A stretch of DNA of 64,000 nt. Source: an uncultured Paracoccaceae bacterium (GTDB lineage Bacteria > Pseudomonadota > Alphaproteobacteria > Rhodobacterales > Rhodobacteraceae). Both the position numbers and the translations under genes were made by a program. Shown here piece after piece: positions 6,830 to 17,020 of the stretch. The notes beneath the pieces were generated by a model. It saw nothing but the letters and a program-made list of their open reading frames with translations, was not told the origin of the DNA and made no database searches. Every line of letters starts with the position of its first letter. Positions within the stretch are counted from its first letter, which is position 1. The stretch is taken from the NCBI GenBank assembly GCA_947492825.1, contig CANLNT010000001.1, positions 992,001 through 1,056,000 of the forward strand, given 5' to 3'.

Positions 6830-7912
6830 ATGGATCGTCGTTCATTTCTGAAAAATACAGCACTTGGCGGGACCGCAGCAGCGGCGACGACGCTGGCTGC
6901 ACCGGCCTATGCGCAGGGCAACCGCACGCTGACGCTGGTCACGACTTGGGGCCGCGGGTTGGCCGGTGTGCATGATGCTGCACAGCGCGCTGCTGACACG
7001 ATCACCGCCATGTCCGATGGCAGCCTGACGATTGATCTGAAGGCCGCTGGCGAACTGGTTGGCGCATTCGAAGTCTTCGACGCTGTGACCTCTGGTCAGG
7101 CGGACATGTACCACGGTGCTGACTACTACTTCATCAACCAGCACCCCGGCTATGCCTTTTACACCTCTGTTCCGTTTGGCATGACGCCGCAGGAACTTGT
7201 GAACTGGTACTACCACGGCGACGGCCATGCGCTGCATGACGAACTGGGCCAGATCTTTGGCCTCAAGTCGTTCCTGGCTGGTAACACAGGCCCGCAGGCT
7301 GGTGGTTGGTTTGCCAAGGAAATCGCTGGCCCCGAAGACTTCCAGGGTCTGAAATTCCGTATGCCGGGTCTGGGCGGTGAAGCGCTGGGCAAAATGGGCG
7401 CATCGGTACAGAACCTGCCAGGTGCAGAAGTGTATCAGGCGCTGGCATCCGGCGCGATTGACGGCACTGAGTGGATCGGTCCATGGGCCGACGAAAAGGC
7501 CGGTTTCCAGGAAATCACCAAGTTCTACTACACCGCTGGCATGCACGAGCCGGGTGCGGGTCTGTCGCTTGCGACGAACCGCGACGTGTTCGACAGCCTG
7601 TCACCAGCGCACCAGAAGATCATCGAGATCGCAGCCGGTGAAGCGCACCAGTGGAACCTGGGCCAGTTTATGGGCAACAACGGTGCGGCGCTGCAGCGTC
7701 TGCAGGCCGGTGGCGTCAAGGTTCTGGAATTCCCTGACAGCGTCTGGGATGCCATGGGTACAGCCGCAACCGAAACGCTTGACCAGTACAACGGTGACGA
7801 CATCTATGACCGCATCCGCGCGTCCTACAACACGTCGATGGCCGCGTCTTCTGGTTGGATCCAGCGTTCCGAAGGTGCCTATCGTGCACAACGCGACCGC
7901 GTGATGGGATAA
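6830..7912 (+). CDS. dctP: TRAP transporter substrate-binding protein, alpha-keto acid/lactate type (DctP family)
   Basis: 360 residues with a Tat-like signal (DRRSFLKNT and hydrophobic stretch ending AYA), so a periplasmic ligand-binding protein. The FRMPG motif (Arg177) and DGTEWIGPW (Glu214-Trp215) match the subgroup that includes TakP (alpha-keto acids) and lactate-binding TRAP proteins, where these residues contact the carboxylate and a metal ion. GGGAGGA lies about six bases before the ATG. First gene of dctP-Q-M; two strong hairpins follow it before dctQ, an arrangement that commonly makes binding protein more abundant than permease. The exact ligand is uncertain; a C2-C4 monocarboxylate or keto acid is my inference. 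Confidence 0.92.
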   Translation: MDRRSFLKNTALGGTAAAATTLAAPAYAQGNRTLTLVTTWGRGLAGVHDAAQRAADTITAMSDGSLTIDLKAAGELVGAFEVFDAVTSGQADMYHGADYYFINQHPGYAFYTSVPFGMTPQELVNWYYHGDGHALHDELGQIFGLKSFLAGNTGPQAGGWFAKEIAGPEDFQGLKFRMPGLGGEALGKMGASVQNLPGAEVYQALASGAIDGTEWIGPWADEKAGFQEITKFYYTAGMHEPGAGLSLATNRDVFDSLSPAHQKIIEIAAGEAHQWNLGQFMGNNGAALQRLQAGGVKVLEFPDSVWDAMGTAATETLDQYNGDDIYDRIRASYNTSMAASSGWIQRSEGAYRAQRDRVMG

Positions 7913-7919
7913 GCCATAT

Positions 7920-7997
7920 AAATCAATCGCTTGGGCGGCGTCCTTGCGGTTGATTTGTATCAAAGTTTGGGCCGGTTGTAGGTGCTATGACCGGCCC
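7920..7997 (+). promoter_or_regulatory. Two intercistronic stem-loops between dctP and dctQ
   Basis: Stem 1: 7920-7930 (AAATCAATCGC) with 7946-7956 (GCGGTTGATTT), 11 bp with one G-T pair. Stem 2: GGGCCGGT (7969-7976) with ACCGGCCC (7990-7997), 8 bp perfect. Neither has a strong T-run. They probably protect the dctP mRNA 3' end or attenuate transcription into dctQM. Confidence 0.65.
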
Positions 7998-8047
7998 AGA
8001 TCATCGCCGCATTTGAACAGGTGCGGTGACCTGACGACATAGGGGGG

Positions 8048-9016
8048 ATGACCATGGGATTGGTCGAAAGCTGGGGCGGAAATGCCTTGGGATGGTTCTT
8101 CGCACATTTGATCGAGGCACCTTACAACCTGATCTACGCCATCTTTAACCCGCAGCTTTGGCTGGCTTGGTTGCCGCATATGTCGTTCAATTCAAAGATT
8201 TCGGACCTTGAGGCGGCGGAATCGCTGCTTCGGTTCATCTACTACGGCGCCAGTTGGGAGCTGTTTTTCGTCTTTCTATTCATCTTTCTGGTCGTCACAG
8301 CTGTGGGACTGGTGCGCAACGCCTTCATGTGGTCCTGCGTGAAAGGCCTTGAAGGGTTTGCCAATGTTGTAGGTCGCACGGCGGCCTTTGCGGGCCTGCT
8401 GATGGTTCTGCAGCAGATTATCATCATCTTCATGCAGCGGGTCTTTGCGGTCTCGGAGATTTCGCTGGGCTTTGGTGTGGCGTTCAGCAAGGACGTCAGC
8501 TGGTGGTCAGAAGAGTTGAAGTTCTACAACGCCATTATCGTGTGCATGTGCGTGAGCTATACCTTTGTGCAAGGCGGGCATGTGCGGGTCGATCTGGTCT
8601 ATTCCGCGATCAGCCACCGCGCAAAGCGGATGATCGACATGATCGGGTCGATGGTCTTTATGGTGCCTGCTGCTGTGTTGACCTATTTCTACGGCTGGTT
8701 CTTCCTGTGGCGGCATCTGGTGACGCCAAAGATGTCGGCATCCGACGCGGCCAAGGATCTGGACAAGCTGCTGCCCAAGGCGCGTGCGCTCAAGTTCAAT
8801 GTCGAAACCATCGGGTTCAGCCCAAATGGGTTCAACGGCTATTTCCTGTTCAAAGTGCTGTTGGTTGCTTTCACGCTGCTGGTGGTCTTGCAGGCCGTCG
8901 CATTCTTCTTCCGCTCTTACCTTGAGTGGAAAGAAGGCCCCGAGAGCGCGGGCAAGAACCTAGACAAAGACCAGTTGGGCGATCCGGTCGCCGAAACTGT
9001 CGCAGAAATTCACTAG
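8048..9016 (+). CDS. dctQ: TRAP transporter small permease subunit (DctQ family, enlarged)
   Basis: 322 residues, clearly longer than the roughly 160-220 usual for DctQ. An N-terminal extension (with WLPHMSFNSKISDLEAAE) precedes the membrane segments at about 73-95, 110-140, 155-172 and 195-220, and a last helix lies near 276-297. The loop between the fourth and last helices (SDAAKDLDKLLPKARALKFN) is also extra. DctQ sits with DctM in the inner membrane and is required for TRAP uptake. GGGGGG precedes the ATG; an ATG two codons downstream is an alternative. It ends 12 bases before dctM. The enlargement matches the unusual size of the DctM next door, so the two probably co-evolved. Confidence 0.85.
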   Translation: MTMGLVESWGGNALGWFFAHLIEAPYNLIYAIFNPQLWLAWLPHMSFNSKISDLEAAESLLRFIYYGASWELFFVFLFIFLVVTAVGLVRNAFMWSCVKGLEGFANVVGRTAAFAGLLMVLQQIIIIFMQRVFAVSEISLGFGVAFSKDVSWWSEELKFYNAIIVCMCVSYTFVQGGHVRVDLVYSAISHRAKRMIDMIGSMVFMVPAAVLTYFYGWFFLWRHLVTPKMSASDAAKDLDKLLPKARALKFNVETIGFSPNGFNGYFLFKVLLVAFTLLVVLQAVAFFFRSYLEWKEGPESAGKNLDKDQLGDPVAETVAEIH

Positions 9017-9028
9017 GGGGCCGGGATC

Positions 9029-11383
9029 ATGCTTTTTGGATTAGATGGCGTCGAAGTCGGCCTGATCATCGTGTTCCTGACCTTGTTCGGGGCCATTCTG
9101 TCGGGGTTCCCGGTCGCCTTTGCGATCTCGGGTGCGGCGGTGATATCTTTTATCATTATTGCGTTGCTGGATGGTGGTGGATTGCTGATCCACATGGCTG
9201 TCGACAAGAGCAGTGAAGAGTTCAGGGCTCTGGTCGATACCGGGCTCAGGCCTGACAATATATCGGTGTTCAGTAATCCCGAGTTGCCAAGAATTGCCGA
9301 ACCATTGTTCCCCGGTGGTTGGGAAATGGCACTGGACCGCAATGTGTCCTTTGTCGTGAACCGGATGAACGAGCGGGTTTTGGCGGGCCAGTCGATTGAA
9401 ACGCTGTTGGCGGTGCTGATGTTCGTGATGATGGGCATCGTGCTGGAGCGCAGCCGGATCGCTGATGAGCTTTTGACCACAATGGCGCGGGTCTTTGGGC
9501 CATTGCCCGGTGGTCTGGCTGTGTCGATCGTGATCGTGGGGGCCTTTCTGGCCGCCTCGACCGGGATTGTGGGTGCGACGGTGGTGACGATGGGATTGTT
9601 GGCGCTGCCGACAATGTTGAAGAACGGCTATTCGCCAGAGCTGTCGACCGGTGTCATCGCGGCATCGGGCACCTTGGGTCAGATCATTCCGCCGTCGATC
9701 GTCATCGTGCTGTTAGGCACGTTGGCCGGTGACCTCTATTCTGCGGCGCAAGAAGAGCGCGCACGCGACGCGGGCTGTTCGGATGCACTGACCTTTCTGG
9801 GCGAGCCTGCAGTGGTTTCCGTCGGGACGCTGTTTCAGGCGGCTTTGCTGCCGGGGATCATGCTGGCGCTGCTTTATGCGCTTTACGCCTTTGGCTTTGC
9901 GCTGGTGAACCCAAAGAAAGCACCACCTGTTCAGATGGACGGTGCGGGCAATGGAGAGATCATCACCCGCAATGAGGCGCTGACTTGGTTCCTTGGTGTG
10001 CCGGTTGCTTTGCTGGTGCTGGTCATTGGTGCAGGGCAGGTGGGTGTCATGGGCAGCCAGTCGGTCATTGTAGACAGCTTTACTGACGCAGGCCAAACCG
10101 CAAGTCTGCGGACCAATGTGGGTGAGGAATGTGCCGCCTCGATGCTTGAACTGCATGGGCAAGAGGCTTGGAATACCGCACTTGCCGAGCAGGCCGCCAT
10201 TGACGAAGCCGGCGGTGTTGAACAGGCCCGCGAATTGACACCTGAAGAGCGTGAATCGCTGGTGATCGAACGTGTAGCCGATGCGCCGACACTGGGCACC
10301 GGCCTGACCGTTGCCGCCCTGCTGATGGGTTTGGTGCTGGTGATTGCGCGGGGTGTGGCACCCTCTGCTGATACACGTCCGCTTATCATCGGTGCGGTTG
10401 GTATCTTGCTGATGTTGCTCGCGGATGTGGCGCTGATTGGGCCGCTGACATCGCCCGGGGCCACAACGCTGATCATTGCGATCCCGCTGATCATTGCCTT
10501 CTACGGATTGCGGTATGCTGCTTTGTTGGCGTTCAGCAATGACATTCTGCGCGTGGTCTTCCCGCCGCTGGTGCTGATCGTTGCGGTTCTGGGGTCGATC
10601 CTTGGCGGGATCACCAACCCGACGCCCGCTGCGGCACTGGGTGCCGGTGGTGCGATCATGCTAGCCGCATTCCGCAAGTTGCAGGACGATGGCCGGTCAG
10701 GCCGGATGGTCTTGCTGACAGCGGGTGCCATCGTGGTCATGCTGCTGATCGGGGTCAACTTTGACATGCGGCTGGGGCAAGAGGTGGTGCTGTTCGAGAA
10801 CTACCTGGCTTATGCCGTCGCCTTTGGCTGCTTCCTCTTTGCGATGTTCGGCATTTGCTGGTCATGCTGGGTGCTCTTTGCAGGCGGTGTGCTGTCGCCG
10901 GTGGTCCGAGAGACCGCCAAGGTGACTTCGATGGTCTTTACGATCCTGATCGGGTCGCAGCTGTTGAACCTTGTGCTGATCTCATTCGGGGGAGAGCATT
11001 ATATTCAGGAGTTCCTGAAGTCGTTCGAGAACGAATGGACGGTGTTCCTGATCGTGATGCTGGTACTCTTTGTGCTGGGCTTCGTGCTGGACTTCTTGGA
11101 GATCATCTACATCGTGATCCCGATTGTGGGGCCGGTCATCTACGGCGGCACGTTTGACCCCAAGTGGGTGACGATCATGATCGCTGTGAACTTACAGACT
11201 TCATTCCTGACGCCGCCCTTTGGCTTTGCGCTGTTCTATCTGCGGGGCGTGGCCCCAAAAGAAATCACGACAGGCCAGATCTATCGCGGTGTGATGCCAT
11301 TCATCGGCATTCAGGTTGTGGGGCTGGCGCTATTGGCGTTCTTCCCGTGGGTCGTGACGATTGTGCCGAACCTGATCAACTAG
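9029..11383 (+). CDS. dctM: TRAP transporter large permease subunit (DctM family, about twice normal length)
   Basis: 784 residues against about 430 for ordinary DctM. DctM signatures are present: GIVGATVVTMGLLALPTML and ASGTLGQIIPPSIVIVLLG near residues 170-235, and NLQTSFLTPPFGFALFYLRG near 715. Between them are inserted hydrophilic segments (about 55-110, 235-260 and 350-420, the last rich in Glu) and extra hydrophobic spans, so the protein looks expanded rather than fused to a recognised second domain. It forms the Na+-driven translocation pathway in the inner membrane. A hairpin terminator follows at 11420. Confidence 0.9.
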   Translation: MLFGLDGVEVGLIIVFLTLFGAILSGFPVAFAISGAAVISFIIIALLDGGGLLIHMAVDKSSEEFRALVDTGLRPDNISVFSNPELPRIAEPLFPGGWEMALDRNVSFVVNRMNERVLAGQSIETLLAVLMFVMMGIVLERSRIADELLTTMARVFGPLPGGLAVSIVIVGAFLAASTGIVGATVVTMGLLALPTMLKNGYSPELSTGVIAASGTLGQIIPPSIVIVLLGTLAGDLYSAAQEERARDAGCSDALTFLGEPAVVSVGTLFQAALLPGIMLALLYALYAFGFALVNPKKAPPVQMDGAGNGEIITRNEALTWFLGVPVALLVLVIGAGQVGVMGSQSVIVDSFTDAGQTASLRTNVGEECAASMLELHGQEAWNTALAEQAAIDEAGGVEQARELTPEERESLVIERVADAPTLGTGLTVAALLMGLVLVIARGVAPSADTRPLIIGAVGILLMLLADVALIGPLTSPGATTLIIAIPLIIAFYGLRYAALLAFSNDILRVVFPPLVLIVAVLGSILGGITNPTPAAALGAGGAIMLAAFRKLQDDGRSGRMVLLTAGAIVVMLLIGVNFDMRLGQEVVLFENYLAYAVAFGCFLFAMFGICWSCWVLFAGGVLSPVVRETAKVTSMVFTILIGSQLLNLVLISFGGEHYIQEFLKSFENEWTVFLIVMLVLFVLGFVLDFLEIIYIVIPIVGPVIYGGTFDPKWVTIMIAVNLQTSFLTPPFGFALFYLRGVAPKEITTGQIYRGVMPFIGIQVVGLALLAFFPWVVTIVPNLIN

Positions 11384-11458: not shown

Positions 11459-11773
11459 CTACATCTCCATCATCTCAGCCACTTCGACCGAGCCAGAGCC
11501 ATCGATAACCATTGGGTTTTGGGCCGCATGGGCGCAAGCCGCCTCGTAGTTGTCAGCGGTGATAATTGTGTAGCCAGAAACCGGATTGGCGCCGCCGTTC
11601 TCGACGTGACCGGATGCAGAGACAGTGTGTGATTGACCGACCGGAGCCCCCGGATCCACCGTCGCCGCGCCCATGGTTTCGTACCACGCGCCCCAGGCAG
11701 CCATGGCCTTTTCGCCTTCTTCGGGGGTCTCGGGAATGCCGCCGCCGTGATAGACAAACAGATACTTTGGCAT
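11459..11773 (-). CDS. YCII-related small protein
   Basis: 104 residues with the YCII/DGPF-type fold: MPKYLFVYHGG at the start, GEKAMAAWGAWYETMG, and a C-terminal GYTIITADNYEAACAHA that fits the 'awe sub-sequence ... A..P' pattern of the family. The family is related to sigma-factor-associated YCII proteins and dimeric ferredoxin-like proteins; function is mostly unknown. GGAGG precedes the ATG at 11773; a further in-frame ATG at 11785 overlaps that ribosome-binding site and is not used here. It stands alone between the TRAP terminator and the dehydrogenase gene. Confidence 0.75.
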   Translation of the reverse strand: MPKYLFVYHGGGIPETPEEGEKAMAAWGAWYETMGAATVDPGAPVGQSHTVSASGHVENGGANPVSGYTIITADNYEAACAHAAQNPMVIDGSGSVEVAEMMEM

Positions 11774-11862
11774 GAAATCCTCCATTGCGTTAAAACCAGA
11801 TCAGTTTGCGACTGATTTGGGTTTCGATCAAGCGATGGAGGCTTTGGCCGGCGCAGCGGCGA

Positions 11863-14286
11863 TCAGCTCTGTACCCGCGCGAGGCTGGGATCATAAGGGG
11901 ACGCAGGGATCACCGTGGCGGGGATCATGTGGCCCAACACGTCAATCGCGCAGGTTTCGCCAGGGGCGGCGTGTGCTGCATCCACAAATGCATAAGCAAG
12001 GTTCAGACCGGTGCGGTGGCCCCAGTCGCCTGATGTGACAGTCCCGATGACCTGTCCGCCGTGCATCAGGGACGCGCCGCCGTGTGCCGGGGCGTCTTTG
12101 CTGGCAAGGCTGAGCGTGACCAAGCGTTTGGCCGGCGCCGGACGGGCGGCGAGGGCGGCTTTGCCGATGAAATCAGGTTTGTCCATCTGGACGAACCGAT
12201 TGAGGCCGGTTTCAAACGGATCAAATTCGGTCAGGATGTCGGCCTTCCAATGCAGATAACCTTTTTCCAAGCGCATGCTGTCGACGGCAAGCGCGCCAAA
12301 GTGCTTGAGGCCATGCGCCTCTCCCGCTTGGGTCAGTGCCAGATAGGCGGCGTAGAGTGATGCATTGGGGAGATGGATTTCATAAGCCAATTCACCGGAG
12401 AAGCTGACCGCCATGACGGTGGCGGGGGCGTGGCCGATGAAGCATTCGCGCACCGAGAGCCAGGGGAATGCGGCGGCGGACCAATCGGCGCGGCTGACTG
12501 TCTGCATGACCGCGCGCGCCTTGGGGCCTGCAAGGACAAGGATCGTTTGGTCATTGGTCAGGCTGCGGATTGTGACGTCTTCGTCTGGACCAATGTGCTG
12601 GGTCAACCAATCCATATCGTGAAATTCCGACGCGGCGGCAGAACCATACCAGATGCGGTCCGGGCCACGGTCAGAGGCGGGCAGGTTGGCAATTGTTGCC
12701 TCACCCTTGAGCATCCCATGGTGGTTGAGCAGATAGGCTAGCCCGACGCGATCCGGTGTGCGCGGCAGGCGGCCGCAGATCATGCGGTCTAGGAACGACT
12801 GCGCATCCGTGCCTGTGATCTCGAACCGATTGAAGCCGTTGACCTCTGACAGGCCGACGGCGTTTTGCACGGCGGAAACTTCTGCGGAGACGACATCAAA
12901 GCTTTCGTCGAAGCGGAAAGAGGGTGTGACGGTCAGGTCAGGGGCATAAAATTCTGCCCTTTCCCAGCCGTTCACCGTCGTGAAATGTGCGCCTACCGCC
13001 GCAAGCACGGGCGTGAGTGGTGTGGTCTTGGCCATGCGCCCGGCGGGGCGATGTTCGTTTGGAAAGTGAAAGCGGAATTCGTTCTGATAATCCTCGATCG
13101 CCTTGAGGGCTGTCAGTTCGACATTGGCGTGGCCGGTAAAGCGACGTGGATCAAGGCACCACGTGTCATAGCACGCCTCGCCATGCACGATTTGCTGGGC
13201 CAGCAGCCAGCCGTGACCGCCGCCTTCGCCAAGGCCTGCGCGCAGGCCGATGATGCAGAATGCGTTGCGTTTGCCGGGGATCGGGCCGAGGAGCGGTGCG
13301 CCGTCGATGGTATAGGTGATGGGGCCGTTGACGACGTTCTTGATACCGACGTCCATCAGGGCGGGCATCCGGGTGAATGCGCCCTCAAGCACGTCCGTGA
13401 TCCGGTCGAGGTCGTCAGGGCAGAGGTCATTTGAAAACTTGGGGTCGATCCCATCCATACCCCACGTGCGGCAGTCCTGTTCGTAGAACCCCAGCAGCAA
13501 CCCCTGCTTTTCCTGACGGCAGTAATAGTCGCTGATCGGGCAGCGGAGCAGGGGCATCCGGTGGCCGGCGTCGATGATGCCCTGGATGTCTTCGGTCACA
13601 AAATATTGGTGTTCCATCGACATAACAGGGTGATGAACGCCCATCATCGCGCCCACCTCGTTCACGCGGTAGCCGCAGGCGTTGACGACGATCTCGGCGC
13701 GGATATCGCCCTTGGTCGTGTGGACAGTCCAGCTGTGGTCCTTGTGTTGCGTCAGCGCGGTGACAGGGGTGTTGCGGTAGACCTCGGCCCCGGCTTTGCG
13801 GGCGCGGCGGGCAAGCGCTTGGCACAGGCTGGCGGGGTCAATGTCACCGTCGTTGCCATCCCATAGACCGCCCACAAGGTTGTCGGTCGAGATCAACGGA
13901 TGGCGGCGGGCGCATTCGGCAGCGTCGATGACTTCGAATTCCACGTCCATCCCGCGCGCCATGGATGAAAAGTGGCGGTAGCCGTCCATCTGGGCCTGCG
14001 TATTGGCCAGCCGGATGCCACCATCGCCGTGATTGTATTGTACGGGGTAATCAGGGTCGTCGCGTAATTCTTTGTAAAGGTTGATGGAATGTGTCTTGAG
14101 GCCGACCATCGTCTGGTTCATGCCAAAGTTGGTGACCTGAGCTGCGGAATGCCAAGTGGTGCCTGATGTCAGTTCATCCCGTTCGACAAGCACGACATCT
14201 GACCAACCTTCCTGCGTCAGATGGTAGAGGGTCGAGCAACCAGCGATCCCACCACCGATGACGACGACGCGTGCTTGCGATTTCAT
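11863..14286 (-). CDS. Dimethylglycine/sarcosine dehydrogenase-like FAD oxidoreductase with C-terminal GcvT domain
   Basis: 807 residues. N-terminal DAO-type FAD domain (VVVIGGGIAGCSTLYHL) with SGTTWHSA, where His46 corresponds to the histidine that carries covalent FAD in dimethylglycine and sarcosine dehydrogenases. Residues from about 380 form an FAO/aminomethyltransferase (GcvT) region that in this family hands the oxidised methyl group to tetrahydrofolate. The reaction would be oxidative demethylation of an N-methyl amine in the cytoplasm. Divergently transcribed from an MttB-family gene, with a LysR gene beyond, implying a methylated-amine demethylation pathway. The start at 14286 is chosen for AAGGGG just upstream. 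The substrate is unproven. Confidence 0.88.
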   Translation of the reverse strand: MKSQARVVVIGGGIAGCSTLYHLTQEGWSDVVLVERDELTSGTTWHSAAQVTNFGMNQTMVGLKTHSINLYKELRDDPDYPVQYNHGDGGIRLANTQAQMDGYRHFSSMARGMDVEFEVIDAAECARRHPLISTDNLVGGLWDGNDGDIDPASLCQALARRARKAGAEVYRNTPVTALTQHKDHSWTVHTTKGDIRAEIVVNACGYRVNEVGAMMGVHHPVMSMEHQYFVTEDIQGIIDAGHRMPLLRCPISDYYCRQEKQGLLLGFYEQDCRTWGMDGIDPKFSNDLCPDDLDRITDVLEGAFTRMPALMDVGIKNVVNGPITYTIDGAPLLGPIPGKRNAFCIIGLRAGLGEGGGHGWLLAQQIVHGEACYDTWCLDPRRFTGHANVELTALKAIEDYQNEFRFHFPNEHRPAGRMAKTTPLTPVLAAVGAHFTTVNGWERAEFYAPDLTVTPSFRFDESFDVVSAEVSAVQNAVGLSEVNGFNRFEITGTDAQSFLDRMICGRLPRTPDRVGLAYLLNHHGMLKGEATIANLPASDRGPDRIWYGSAAASEFHDMDWLTQHIGPDEDVTIRSLTNDQTILVLAGPKARAVMQTVSRADWSAAAFPWLSVRECFIGHAPATVMAVSFSGELAYEIHLPNASLYAAYLALTQAGEAHGLKHFGALAVDSMRLEKGYLHWKADILTEFDPFETGLNRFVQMDKPDFIGKAALAARPAPAKRLVTLSLASKDAPAHGGASLMHGGQVIGTVTSGDWGHRTGLNLAYAFVDAAHAAPGETCAIDVLGHMIPATVIPASPYDPSLARVQS

Positions 14287-14346
14287 GATGGCCCCTTGGT
14301 TGTTTGCAGGATTTTGCCGGGACGGCGCAGGCGGCGGCAACGGTAT

Positions 14347-14362
14347 TTTCGCGTATTCGAAA
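14347..14362. promoter_or_regulatory. TTTCG-N6-CGAAA site in the dehydrogenase/mttB divergent promoter
   Basis: Inverted repeat TTTCG-CGTATT-CGAAA. Closely related sites occur at the LysR gene promoter (16982-16998 and 17005-17020), so this is a candidate binding site of that regulator. Confidence 0.5.
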
Positions 14363-14457
14363 TAATAGAAACTGTATTTTGACTTTATGAAGGTGTGCCG
14401 GAAGTTCTTGCGCCAGGGTCAGACTGCATTTCCAATTGCGCAACGGGTGGACCGCAG

Positions 14458-15984
14458 ATGGCAGATGACAAACCAAAACGCGTGCGCAGCGGCCGCAAGG
14501 CGCGGTTAGCGCAACGGGCTGCTCCGCCAAAGATCAACCCTGCCCCGCCCGGACAGCCGGGCGGGCGCTATCAGCCGCTGACCAAAGTCGAAATGCGCGC
14601 CATCTATGACATCGCGCTGCAGCTGCTTGAAGAGCTTGGCATGGGCGAGGTGCCGCAACGGTTGTGGGATGATTTGATCGCCGCAGGTGCCGTTGATCTG
14701 GGCCAGGGGCGGATCGGGCTGCCTAAAGCGCTGGTTGAACGTAGCATCCAGACTGCGGCCAAAACCTTTCACCTGCATGGGCGCGATCCGGCGAGGTCGA
14801 TAGAGGTGGGTGGTGACAAGGTGTTCTTTGGCACCGGTGGGGCCGCGGTCAACACGCTTGATATGGACAGTGGGCTTTATCGCCCCTCGACGTTGCGCGA
14901 TCTACATGACTTTACCCGGTTGCAAGACACGTTGGACAACGTGGCATGGTTCACCCGCTGCTGCATCGCGACGGATGTGCCCGACCCCTATGATCTGGAC
15001 GTGAACACCGCCTATGCGCTGATCCGCAACACCACAAAGCCCGTGGCGACCGCGTTCACGCTGGCCGAACATGTGGCGCCGATTGTCCGGATGCTGGACA
15101 TCGCGGCAGGCGGTGAGGGCGCGTTTGCCGCGCGTCCGTTCCTGAAGGCGCATATCAGCCCGGTCATTTCGCCCATGCGGTTTGGTGAAGATGCGGTGGA
15201 TGTGGTCTATGAATGCATCGCCCACAACATTCCGATGTCCTGCATCACAGCAGCGCAAGCCGGGGCCACTGCGCCTGCGACACTGGCGGGGTTTCTGGCG
15301 CAATCCCTCGCTGAGACGATGGCAAGCCTCGTGATGGTCAATGTGATCTCTCCTGGCTTTCCAATGGTATTTTCCAACTGGCCCTTGGTGATTGATTTGC
15401 GCAGCGGGGCCTTTGCGGGCGGCGGGGGTGAAACGGTACTGATGAACGCGGCCTCGGCCCAATTGTCGAACTGGCTGGGCCTGCCATCAGGGGTGGCCGC
15501 GTCGATGACGGATGCCAAGGCCGTTGATGCACAGTACGGCGTCGAAAAAGGCATGACATCGCTTGCGGCGGCCCTCGCCGGCGGCAATTTGATCTATGAA
15601 AGCAGCGGCATGATGGCGGCACTTTTGGGGGTGAGTTTTGAGGCGTTCATAATGGACGACGAAATGCACAGCGCCACCTATCGCGCCCTGCGCGGAGTCG
15701 AAGTCACGACGGACAATTTGGGTTTTCAGGCGATATGTGACGCGATCCTTGGTGACGGTCATTTTCTGGGGGCTGATCAGACCTATGCAGCGATGGAGCG
15801 GGACTATCACTATCCGCAACTGGCTGACCGCGAACAGCCGCGGACATGGCAAGAAGCGGGTGCAACAGATGCATGGGACAGGGCCCGGGTGAAGGCGCGA
15901 GAGGTTCTGGAGGCCCATCACCCGCAATATCTGACCGCGGAACAGGACCGCGCAATCCGCGATCAGTTCGACATTCTGGATTAA
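14458..15984 (+). CDS. Trimethylamine methyltransferase (MttB) family protein, non-pyrrolysine
   Basis: 508 residues of the MttB superfamily, with no internal amber codon, so it is a member without pyrrolysine. In characterised relatives (for example MtgB for glycine betaine) such proteins move a methyl group from a quaternary amine to a corrinoid protein. The basic N-terminus (RVRSGRKARLAQRA) and VFFGTGGAAVNTLDMDSGLY are notable. The start at 14458 is favoured over 14395 because the extra residues look non-coding. Divergent from the FAD/GcvT dehydrogenase; its stop overlaps the stop of the convergent LysR gene by four bases. No corrinoid protein gene is in the window, so the methyl acceptor is an open question. 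Confidence 0.85.
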   Translation: MADDKPKRVRSGRKARLAQRAAPPKINPAPPGQPGGRYQPLTKVEMRAIYDIALQLLEELGMGEVPQRLWDDLIAAGAVDLGQGRIGLPKALVERSIQTAAKTFHLHGRDPARSIEVGGDKVFFGTGGAAVNTLDMDSGLYRPSTLRDLHDFTRLQDTLDNVAWFTRCCIATDVPDPYDLDVNTAYALIRNTTKPVATAFTLAEHVAPIVRMLDIAAGGEGAFAARPFLKAHISPVISPMRFGEDAVDVVYECIAHNIPMSCITAAQAGATAPATLAGFLAQSLAETMASLVMVNVISPGFPMVFSNWPLVIDLRSGAFAGGGGETVLMNAASAQLSNWLGLPSGVAASMTDAKAVDAQYGVEKGMTSLAAALAGGNLIYESSGMMAALLGVSFEAFIMDDEMHSATYRALRGVEVTTDNLGFQAICDAILGDGHFLGADQTYAAMERDYHYPQLADREQPRTWQEAGATDAWDRARVKAREVLEAHHPQYLTAEQDRAIRDQFDILD

Positions 15985-16943
15985 TCGATCAGGCGGTAGC
16001 TGTCGCGCAGCCAAGGGTAGGCGGCGACGGCAGGGCAAACCGCATGGGTTGCCAACAGGCTGCGCATGGCCGTGGCGATCCGCTGCGCCACATCCTTGGT
16101 TCGTGTGTTGGCCACGAAAATCGAAACGGTGCGGGCAAAGCCTTTGTTGGGGAAGGGTAGCAGCGCGATCTGCGGCTGAAACCGTTTGGCGCGCATGTAA
16201 TTGCCCGGTGTTGTGATGGCCCAGCCATCGCCTTGTGCAATCAGCGCCATCAGCGACGCGGTGCTGTCGAGTTCAAAGCTGTGCGGGAGTTTCAGGCGTA
16301 GGCGGCGCAACTGTGCTTCCACCATATGGCCGATGATCTGGCTGCGATTGTAGCGCAGGAACGGCAGTTCCGTGCGTCCGGCCACCAGATCCTCGGCCAA
16401 GACATCGGACCGGGCGGGGACGGCCAGCACAAACGGATCGCGCAAGAGTGGCAGTTCGGTCAGATCGGCGGGCGGCGTTGTTGGGCATGTTGCCAGCCCC
16501 AGATCAAGATCGCCCGCGCGCAAAAGATCGAGGATTTCATGGCTGACGCGTGTCATATGGGTGAAACGGCAGCCCGGCAGACTGCTTGCCAGCAGACGGG
16601 TGATGTCCGGGCCGATGTCATTTTCAAAGTCATCGATCATTGCAAAGCGCAGTTGTTGCAGCCCACCCGGTTGGGCGGTTGTCAGATCAGCGGTGGCGCG
16701 GTCGAGTGTTCCAAGCGCCTCTTCCACGGCTGCCAGAAATTGCAAGCCCGCGGTCGTCGGCACCATCGGGCGGCGGTCATGATCGATCAGCGACGTCGCA
16801 AGGTGGTCTTCGAGCCGGGCGAGGTGATGCGATACGGTGCTGATGGAAAGTCCCGTTTGGGCAGCGGCGGCCTGCAACGATCCGACACGGGCCACGGCGC
16901 AGAACACGCGCAGCCATTTGAGCGAGAGATCGGGGTGTTTCAT
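15981..16943 (-). CDS. LysR-family transcriptional regulator
   Basis: 320 residues. N-terminal winged HTH at about 6-65 (LKWLRVFCAVARVGSLQAAA, ISTVSHHLARLEDHL), then a LysR substrate-binding domain starting around 95. The ATG at 16943 begins the conserved HTH and has AGGAC upstream; the 16991 start would only add an unconserved tail. The gene is convergent with mttB (4-bp overlap of stops) and its promoter holds two TTTCG/CGAAA inverted repeats resembling the one in the dehydrogenase/mttB promoter. It is therefore the likely pathway regulator, responding to an amine or a breakdown product. Confidence 0.9.
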   Translation of the reverse strand: MKHPDLSLKWLRVFCAVARVGSLQAAAAQTGLSISTVSHHLARLEDHLATSLIDHDRRPMVPTTAGLQFLAAVEEALGTLDRATADLTTAQPGGLQQLRFAMIDDFENDIGPDITRLLASSLPGCRFTHMTRVSHEILDLLRAGDLDLGLATCPTTPPADLTELPLLRDPFVLAVPARSDVLAEDLVAGRTELPFLRYNRSQIIGHMVEAQLRRLRLKLPHSFELDSTASLMALIAQGDGWAITTPGNYMRAKRFQPQIALLPFPNKGFARTVSIFVANTRTKDVAQRIATAMRSLLATHAVCPAVAAYPWLRDSYRLID

Positions 16944-16981
16944 CAACTGTCCTTGTGGCGGTCGCACAAGGGTAGCACCGG

Positions 16982-17020
16982 TTTCGAGCAATGCGAAACT
17001 GCGATTTCAGGTTGTCGAAA
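16982..17020. promoter_or_regulatory. Two TTTCG/CGAAA inverted repeats before the LysR gene
   Basis: TTTCG-N7-CGAAA at 16982-16998 (contains a T-N11-A LysR core) and TTTCA-N6-CGAAA at 17005-17020. They share half-sites with 14347-14362. Likely autoregulatory sites. Confidence 0.5.

Follow-up and report, generated by a model that had tools for sequence, protein, structure and literature searches.

The 64-kb window analysed here (the whole stretch C1:992001-1056000 in the genome of an uncultured marine Paracoccaceae bacterium) holds a homologue of the methyltransferase gene mttB that stands between two oppositely oriented genes, one for a demethylase dependent on flavin adenine dinucleotide (FAD) and one for a LysR-family regulator:

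11863-14286, minus strand: gcvT-type gene, FAD-dependent demethylase resembling dimethylglycine dehydrogenase (DMGDH), with a tetrahydrofolate (THF)-binding GcvT domain, 807 amino acids (PF01266, PF16350, PF01571, PF08669)
14458-15984, plus strand: mttB homologue, non-pyrrolysine, 508 amino acids from the ATG at 14458, the open reading frame (ORF) opening at the GTG at 14395 (PF06253)
15981-16943, minus strand: LysR-family regulator gene, 320 amino acids from the ATG at 16943, convergent with mttB (PF00126, PF03466)

An earlier note on this DNA had described an mttB homologue without pyrrolysine, divergent from an FAD/GcvT gene and with no corrinoid-protein gene nearby. This description is mostly right. 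PF06253 spans the whole MttB protein (365.6 bits against a cut-off of 25, positions 2-490 of 500), with no in-frame TAG and a methionine at the pyrrolysine column, and the divergent orientation and the Pfam domains of the FAD/GcvT protein (DAO, FAO_M, GCV_T and GCV_T_C) are borne out; the LysR protein carries HTH_1 and the LysR substrate-binding domain. The only places in the genome with PF02607, C1:1399923 and C1:1098113, both lie outside the 64-kb window, which thus contains no corrinoid-protein gene.

To place the arrangement among relatives, 51 loci of the mttB clade of the window (orthologues at >=60% identity, the next clade following only at about 45%) were compared with 39 controls, namely 20 loci of other MttB clades and 19 random loci. 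The FAD/GcvT partner lies beside mttB in 47 of the 51 clade loci and in 0/39 controls, and it is the divergent partner of mttB in relatives as well. A lysR gene is present in about 30 of the 51, the convergent position seen in the window recurring in many of them; apart from the GcvT partner and this frequent regulator, no neighbouring gene is fixed across the clade loci. Of the 198 family genomes, 40 carry the clade; it also extends to a few genomes from other families of alphaproteobacteria, with plasmid carriers in Leisingera, Ruegeria, Roseobacter and Mesorhizobium. The mttB, FAD/GcvT and lysR genes are a real unit, and the reading of the earlier note, an aerobic N-demethylation unit with one LysR regulator, finds good support in this conserved synteny together with a conserved palindrome, whose copies in the window are:

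14347-14362, no strand assigned: palindrome TTTCGCGTATTCGAAA in the gcvT-mttB promoter region, a likely LysR site (exact motif)
16982-16998, no strand assigned: palindrome TTTCGAGCAATGCGAAA upstream of lysR (exact motif)
17005-17020, no strand assigned: imperfect copy TTTCAGGTTGTCGAAA upstream of lysR (one mismatch)

The motif had been given as TTTCG-N6/7-CGAAA, once in the shared promoter and twice before lysR; the copies at 14347 and 16982 are exact, while that at 17005 has one mismatch, so that "twice before lysR" is only nearly right. Two exact matches compare with 0.20 expected, and 0/100 shuffles reached two. Genome-wide, the exact word alone is non-specific (16 sites versus 12 for a reversed-pattern control), and a regulon derived from it was rejected: the other sites lie mostly inside ORFs or before unrelated genes, and no further target was accepted. 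Position and conservation, on the other hand, make the palindrome more than chance. Of 31 orthologous gcvT-mttB intergenic regions, 8 have a copy (one mismatch at most) that begins 55-85 nt from the start of gcvT, compared with a mean of 0.2 and a maximum of 2 in 200 dinucleotide shuffles, and 4 of 17 regions upstream of lysR carry the palindrome against 0.47 in shuffles (maximum 3). Well-formed palindromes have TTTCGA as arms. This pattern supports a single LysR-type regulator for gcvT-mttB and for lysR itself, acting at predicted sites.

The nearest solved relatives of the window MttB are MtgB (191 bits) and MttB (161 bits). In the tree its clade forms a branch of its own (support 100/99), whose sister clade contains the MttB of the Ruegeria pomeroyi megaplasmid, and the methionine at the pyrrolysine column is invariant in the clade members sampled. 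Using the active-site column names of PMC9842639, residues D336, K338, Q343 and Y364 are the same as in Methanosarcina barkeri MttB. A structure predicted from an alignment of the window and genome loci (predicted local distance difference test score, pLDDT, 86.6) aligned by VIA-align with Z scores of 50.3 to 7xcl and 50.0 to 7xcn (the MttB-MttC complex), over 465 and 453 residues and with a root-mean-square deviation of 2.3-2.4, and with Z 49 to MtgB. Judged by this model and the PF06253 match, the protein is a non-pyrrolysine member of the MttB superfamily with the MttB-type TIM-barrel fold, for which methyl transfer from a quaternary amine to a corrinoid is predicted.

The same comparison bears on the substrate. 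With the Sinorhizobium meliloti gene adjoining mtgC as MtgB reference, the genome proves to have a separate MtgB orthologue at C1:1475208, 61% identical to the reference; in the tree it clusters with this gene and DSY3156. MtgB and the window protein share 28% identity, and the latter does not group with characterised MtgB; on this evidence, it is not MtgB. Because the genome has that separate orthologue, the substrate is probably not glycine betaine. A second, redundant glycine betaine demethylase, with the FAD/GcvT enzyme as an ordinary dimethylglycine dehydrogenase, would nevertheless fit the resemblance of the partner to DMGDH and the betaine-type ABC transporters that adjoin the units of several relatives; moreover, among the substrates of the MtgBCD route in roseobacters glycine betaine is the one best shown, and R. 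pomeroyi shows a rise of two MttBs on N-osmolytes (PMC12478193). Against this stand the orthologue at C1:1475208, the different clade and active-site residues of the window protein, and the sulfonate genes found beside the units of relatives (see below), which would be superfluous for glycine betaine, and we consider the redundancy unlikely.

The FAD/GcvT partner has dimethylglycine dehydrogenase 4pab as its best solved relative (494 bits over 794 residues). It shows the DAO-FAO_M-GCV_T-GCV_T_C layout of the dimethylglycine dehydrogenase family, and both the covalent-FAD histidine (TWH) and the HQY motif align with 4pab; no NCBIfam cut-off was reached among the families listed.

The earlier note had left the methyl acceptor unclear. 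While its demethylation unit stands, this part of its interpretation is not borne out, as a corrinoid partner is encoded elsewhere in the genome, which has five MttB paralogues and one stand-alone corrinoid protein, MtgC (C1:1399869-1400570, 233 amino acids, GDIHDIGKN motif, PF02310 and PF02607), followed by a DUF1638 gene and about 390 kb from the window unit. MetF2 and MtgD are adjacent at C1:1423747-1425806, both intact, the stop inside the match being the end of the open frame; in one relative (locus L064) a MetF2-MtgD pair adjoins mttB-gcvT. The second PF02607 protein (C1:1097921-1098754, 277 amino acids) was rejected as a partner, with a weak domain score and a sequence that looks like a B12-type regulator and not like MtgC. 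In R. pomeroyi a shared MtgBCD and split methionine synthase system has been shown genetically for glycine betaine, mtgC and mtgD mutants failing to grow on it even when given methionine; several MttBs probably share the one MtgC there, and the authors foresaw other substrates for the extra MttBs (PMC12478193). MtgC and MtgD are both present in 40/40 family genomes carrying the clade, compared with 14 genomes lacking MtgC and 10 lacking MtgD among the 158 others (Fisher p 0.04 for MtgC). Given the one distant MtgC, the R. pomeroyi precedent and the presence of MtgC and MtgD in all carriers, we take the missing local corrinoid gene to be ordinary for such bacteria, and the puzzle of an MttB without corrinoid partner is largely explained by published work. 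The earlier note had named a corrinoid-protein partner coded for elsewhere, with a demonstrated role, as evidence against its reading; the partner is there, and that it serves the window MttB in particular is what we infer from these observations.

Several findings weigh against this assignment. MtgC is nearly universal in the family (184/198), which makes its co-occurrence weak evidence; at none of the 51 clade loci is there an MtgC gene within about 9 kb of mttB; two columns named in the MttB-MttC contact carry other residues in the clade (E225 to R, G372 to L), perhaps a sign of a changed partner; and some genomes with MttBs of other clades, such as G136 (97% complete), show no MtgC match. 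A few genomes, G136 and G160 among them, combine other-clade MttBs and MtgD with no MtgC match, perhaps through assembly gaps or a different corrinoid partner. A corrinoid-free MttB that passes the methyl straight to folate through its GcvT partner would suit the lack of a linked corrinoid gene at any locus and the tight pairing of MttB with a folate enzyme. We regard it as highly improbable, since 40/40 family carriers possess both MtgC and MtgD and the predicted fold is that of the MttB-MttC complex. Furthermore, GcvT-type enzymes accept an oxidised methylene and not a methyl group, and we know of no MttB relative that acts without a corrinoid.

Drawing on the computed gene order and its conservation, the fold, the clade, the conserved palindrome and the presence of MtgC, MtgD and MetF2, we propose, with a probability of roughly three in four, that a quaternary ammonium compound is demethylated in two steps via the shared MtgC, under LysR control. 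Mechanistically, MttB would take a methyl group from the quaternary amine, without pyrrolysine, to the Co(I) of MtgC, which would also serve the split methionine synthase and other MttB paralogues; MtgD would then move the methyl to THF, and MetF2 would oxidise the methyl-THF. In the second step, the FAD/GcvT enzyme would oxidise a methyl group of the resulting tertiary amine and pass it to THF as methylene-THF. LysR, by binding the TTTCGa-N4/5-tCGAAA palindromes that stand in the promoter of gcvT-mttB and upstream of lysR, would control both. The use of MtgC, the order of the steps and the binding of LysR are all predicted here.

The gene context of relatives offers a lead to the substrate. 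Downstream of gcvT and on its strand, Leisingera methylohalidivorans (L107) has genes for a regulator, CuyA (527 bits, cut-off 450), a DegT aminotransferase, CuyB (272, cut-off 190), an HpsN-like dehydrogenase and a putative sulfate exporter; the opposite side of the unit is flanked by a betaine-type ABC transporter. At L070, degT, hpsN-like, cuyA (528 bits) and cuyB (246 bits) come immediately after mttB and share its strand, and at L078 hpsN-like, cuyA and cuyB lie beyond lysR. In another family (L161) the row runs xsc-like, gcvT, cuyA (517 bits), the three genes separated by 12 and 51 bp, and nearby are degT, cuyB (232 bits) and a ProXVW-type transporter; a betaine-type transporter also occurs at L053, L075, L111 and L159. 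The HpsN-like proteins score 542-758 bits as (R)-2,3-dihydroxypropane-1-sulfonate (DHPS) dehydrogenase versus 237-249 as histidinol dehydrogenase. At least one sulfonate gene (cuyA, cuyB or hpsN-like) lies near the unit in 7/51 loci and 0/39 controls, and at least two module genes in 8/51 versus 0/39 (p 0.008; 0.044 without the loci that supplied queries), a test that leans in favour, the queries having been taken from clade loci.

This context hints at an N-methylated aminosulfonate or a similar zwitterion as the substrate of the clade. A more specific version, in which the clade demethylates an N-methylated C3 aminosulfonate (cysteinolic-acid or cysteate betaine) and corrinoid-dependent demethylation is the entry step of sulfonate degradation, with the transporter, MttB, FAD/GcvT, the HpsN-like dehydrogenase, CuyB and CuyA as its parts, is tentative and in our view rather doubtful. 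No paper in the literature searched links MttB with cuyA-, cuyB- or hpsN-type genes, and nothing usable emerged on N-methylated cysteinolate or cysteate betaines. We know of no proof that an N-methylated C3 aminosulfonate occurs in the sea.

The sulfonate neighbours may also reflect chance or ecological clustering around a unit for another betaine, a possibility that falls somewhat short of even and that rivals the substrate lead only, leaving the two-step mechanism untouched. CuyB is not enriched in carrier genomes (11/40 versus 32/158, not significant), CuyA and CuyB are both absent from the window genome, and this genome has no close match to the binding protein of the transporter (29%); these facts count against a sulfonate substrate and make the lead weaker for the window genome. 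In addition, the hpsN of L045 seems to belong to an ordinary DHPS operon. Clustering alone accounts less well for the same-strand, near-gapless order at L070 and L161 and for gene subsets that recur in different arrangements, at least two module genes together at the loci counted above. Carnitine, gamma-butyrobetaine or another betaine of a CoA route is improbable, even a little more so than a redundant MtgB: on two Ruegeria plasmids the unit adjoins genes for carnitinyl-CoA dehydratase, CoA ligase, acyl-CoA dehydrogenase and a GlxA-type regulator, but this context is confined to 2/51 loci, both Ruegeria with the same arrangement, and genes of the cysteate type turn up again at a larger number of loci and in varied arrangements.

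Some further rows of genes were observed along the way. The dense cluster L161:1-17741 comprises aldehyde dehydrogenase, LLM oxidoreductase, Xsc-like, gcvT, cuyA, mttB, agmatinase-like ureohydrolase, degT, cuyB and ProXVW genes; the ureohydrolase, also seen at L053, fits nowhere in the proposed pathway. The window genome has an ordinary DHPS operon plus Xsc, the operon (L168, C1:2426500-2434230) holding TRAP transporter, hpsN, SDR, Zn-alcohol dehydrogenase, UspA and sulfopyruvate decarboxylase subunit genes; a similar hpsN-SDR-comDE row follows mttB directly at L045. On the R. pomeroyi megaplasmid (L112:7007-17303), LysR, an MttB of the sister clade (41%), a class III aminotransferase, two FAD/GcvT genes and an Xsc-like thiamine pyrophosphate enzyme stand in a row; three demethylases with an aminotransferase and an Xsc-like enzyme would suit the stepwise breakdown of N-trimethyltaurine, the Xsc score (401) being below the NCBIfam cut-off of 620. 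Another MttB paralogue of the window genome (L012, C2:569384-578998) is lined up, much as in an operon, with a second FAD/GcvT gene and with genes for a GMC oxidoreductase and a TRAP transporter, and related MttBs occur near the pair of the window clade at L050 and L062.

Within the window, two neighbours were not accepted as members of the unit. For the TRAP transporter at 6830-11383, relatives show only scattered, weak TRAP matches; its DctM (9029-11383, 784 amino acids) is far above the usual length, with a Pfam match split into two stretches that points to a large insertion. The small ORF at 11459-11785 (minus strand, 108 amino acids), beyond gcvT, is without match among the relatives compared; it has no Pfam or NCBIfam match and looks YCII-like by eye.

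Taken globally, the unit adds a new, well-conserved member to the aerobic MttB systems that share a corrinoid protein. An MttB seemingly without corrinoid is no longer a paradox, and one of the many unassigned MttB paralogues of roseobacters becomes testable, with its own regulator, its own partner enzyme and a shared corrinoid carrier. If the sulfonate link is true, it would suggest that the ocean contains methylated sulfonates of a class so far unseen, and it would connect methyl transfer dependent on vitamin B12 with marine sulfur cycling. Our comparison suggests that what is new here is the adjoining of such a unit to sulfonate genes in relatives, the shared MtgBCD logic being known (PMC12478193).

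Among characterised enzymes, mammalian dimethylglycine dehydrogenase (4pab, 5l46) shares with the partner enzyme the FAD and GcvT layout and the aligned covalent-FAD histidine and HQY, whereas the window enzyme, whose substrate would be a tertiary amine, is paired with the mttB clade in nearly all loci. M. barkeri MttB with MttC (7xcn) resembles the window MttB in fold (Z 50) and in keeping Tyr364, D336, K338 and Q343; the window protein differs by lacking pyrrolysine and by its changed columns 225 and 372. MtgB DSY3156 of Desulfitobacterium hafniense (2qne/9yce) likewise has PF06253, no pyrrolysine, a similar fold (Z 49) and the D336/K338/Q343 columns, but identity is 27-28%, the window MttB has Met for Leu at the pyrrolysine column and Tyr for Leu at 364, and its gene does not adjoin corrinoid or pterin methyltransferase genes. 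The closest system is MtgBCD of R. pomeroyi, also an aerobic alphaproteobacterium in which an MttB-family methyltransferase, a stand-alone MtgC with DUF1638 and an MtgD beside MetF2 are scattered over the genome. The window MttB differs from it in belonging to a separate clade (28% to MtgB), in coming with a dedicated FAD/GcvT partner and LysR gene and, in all likelihood, in acting on another substrate.

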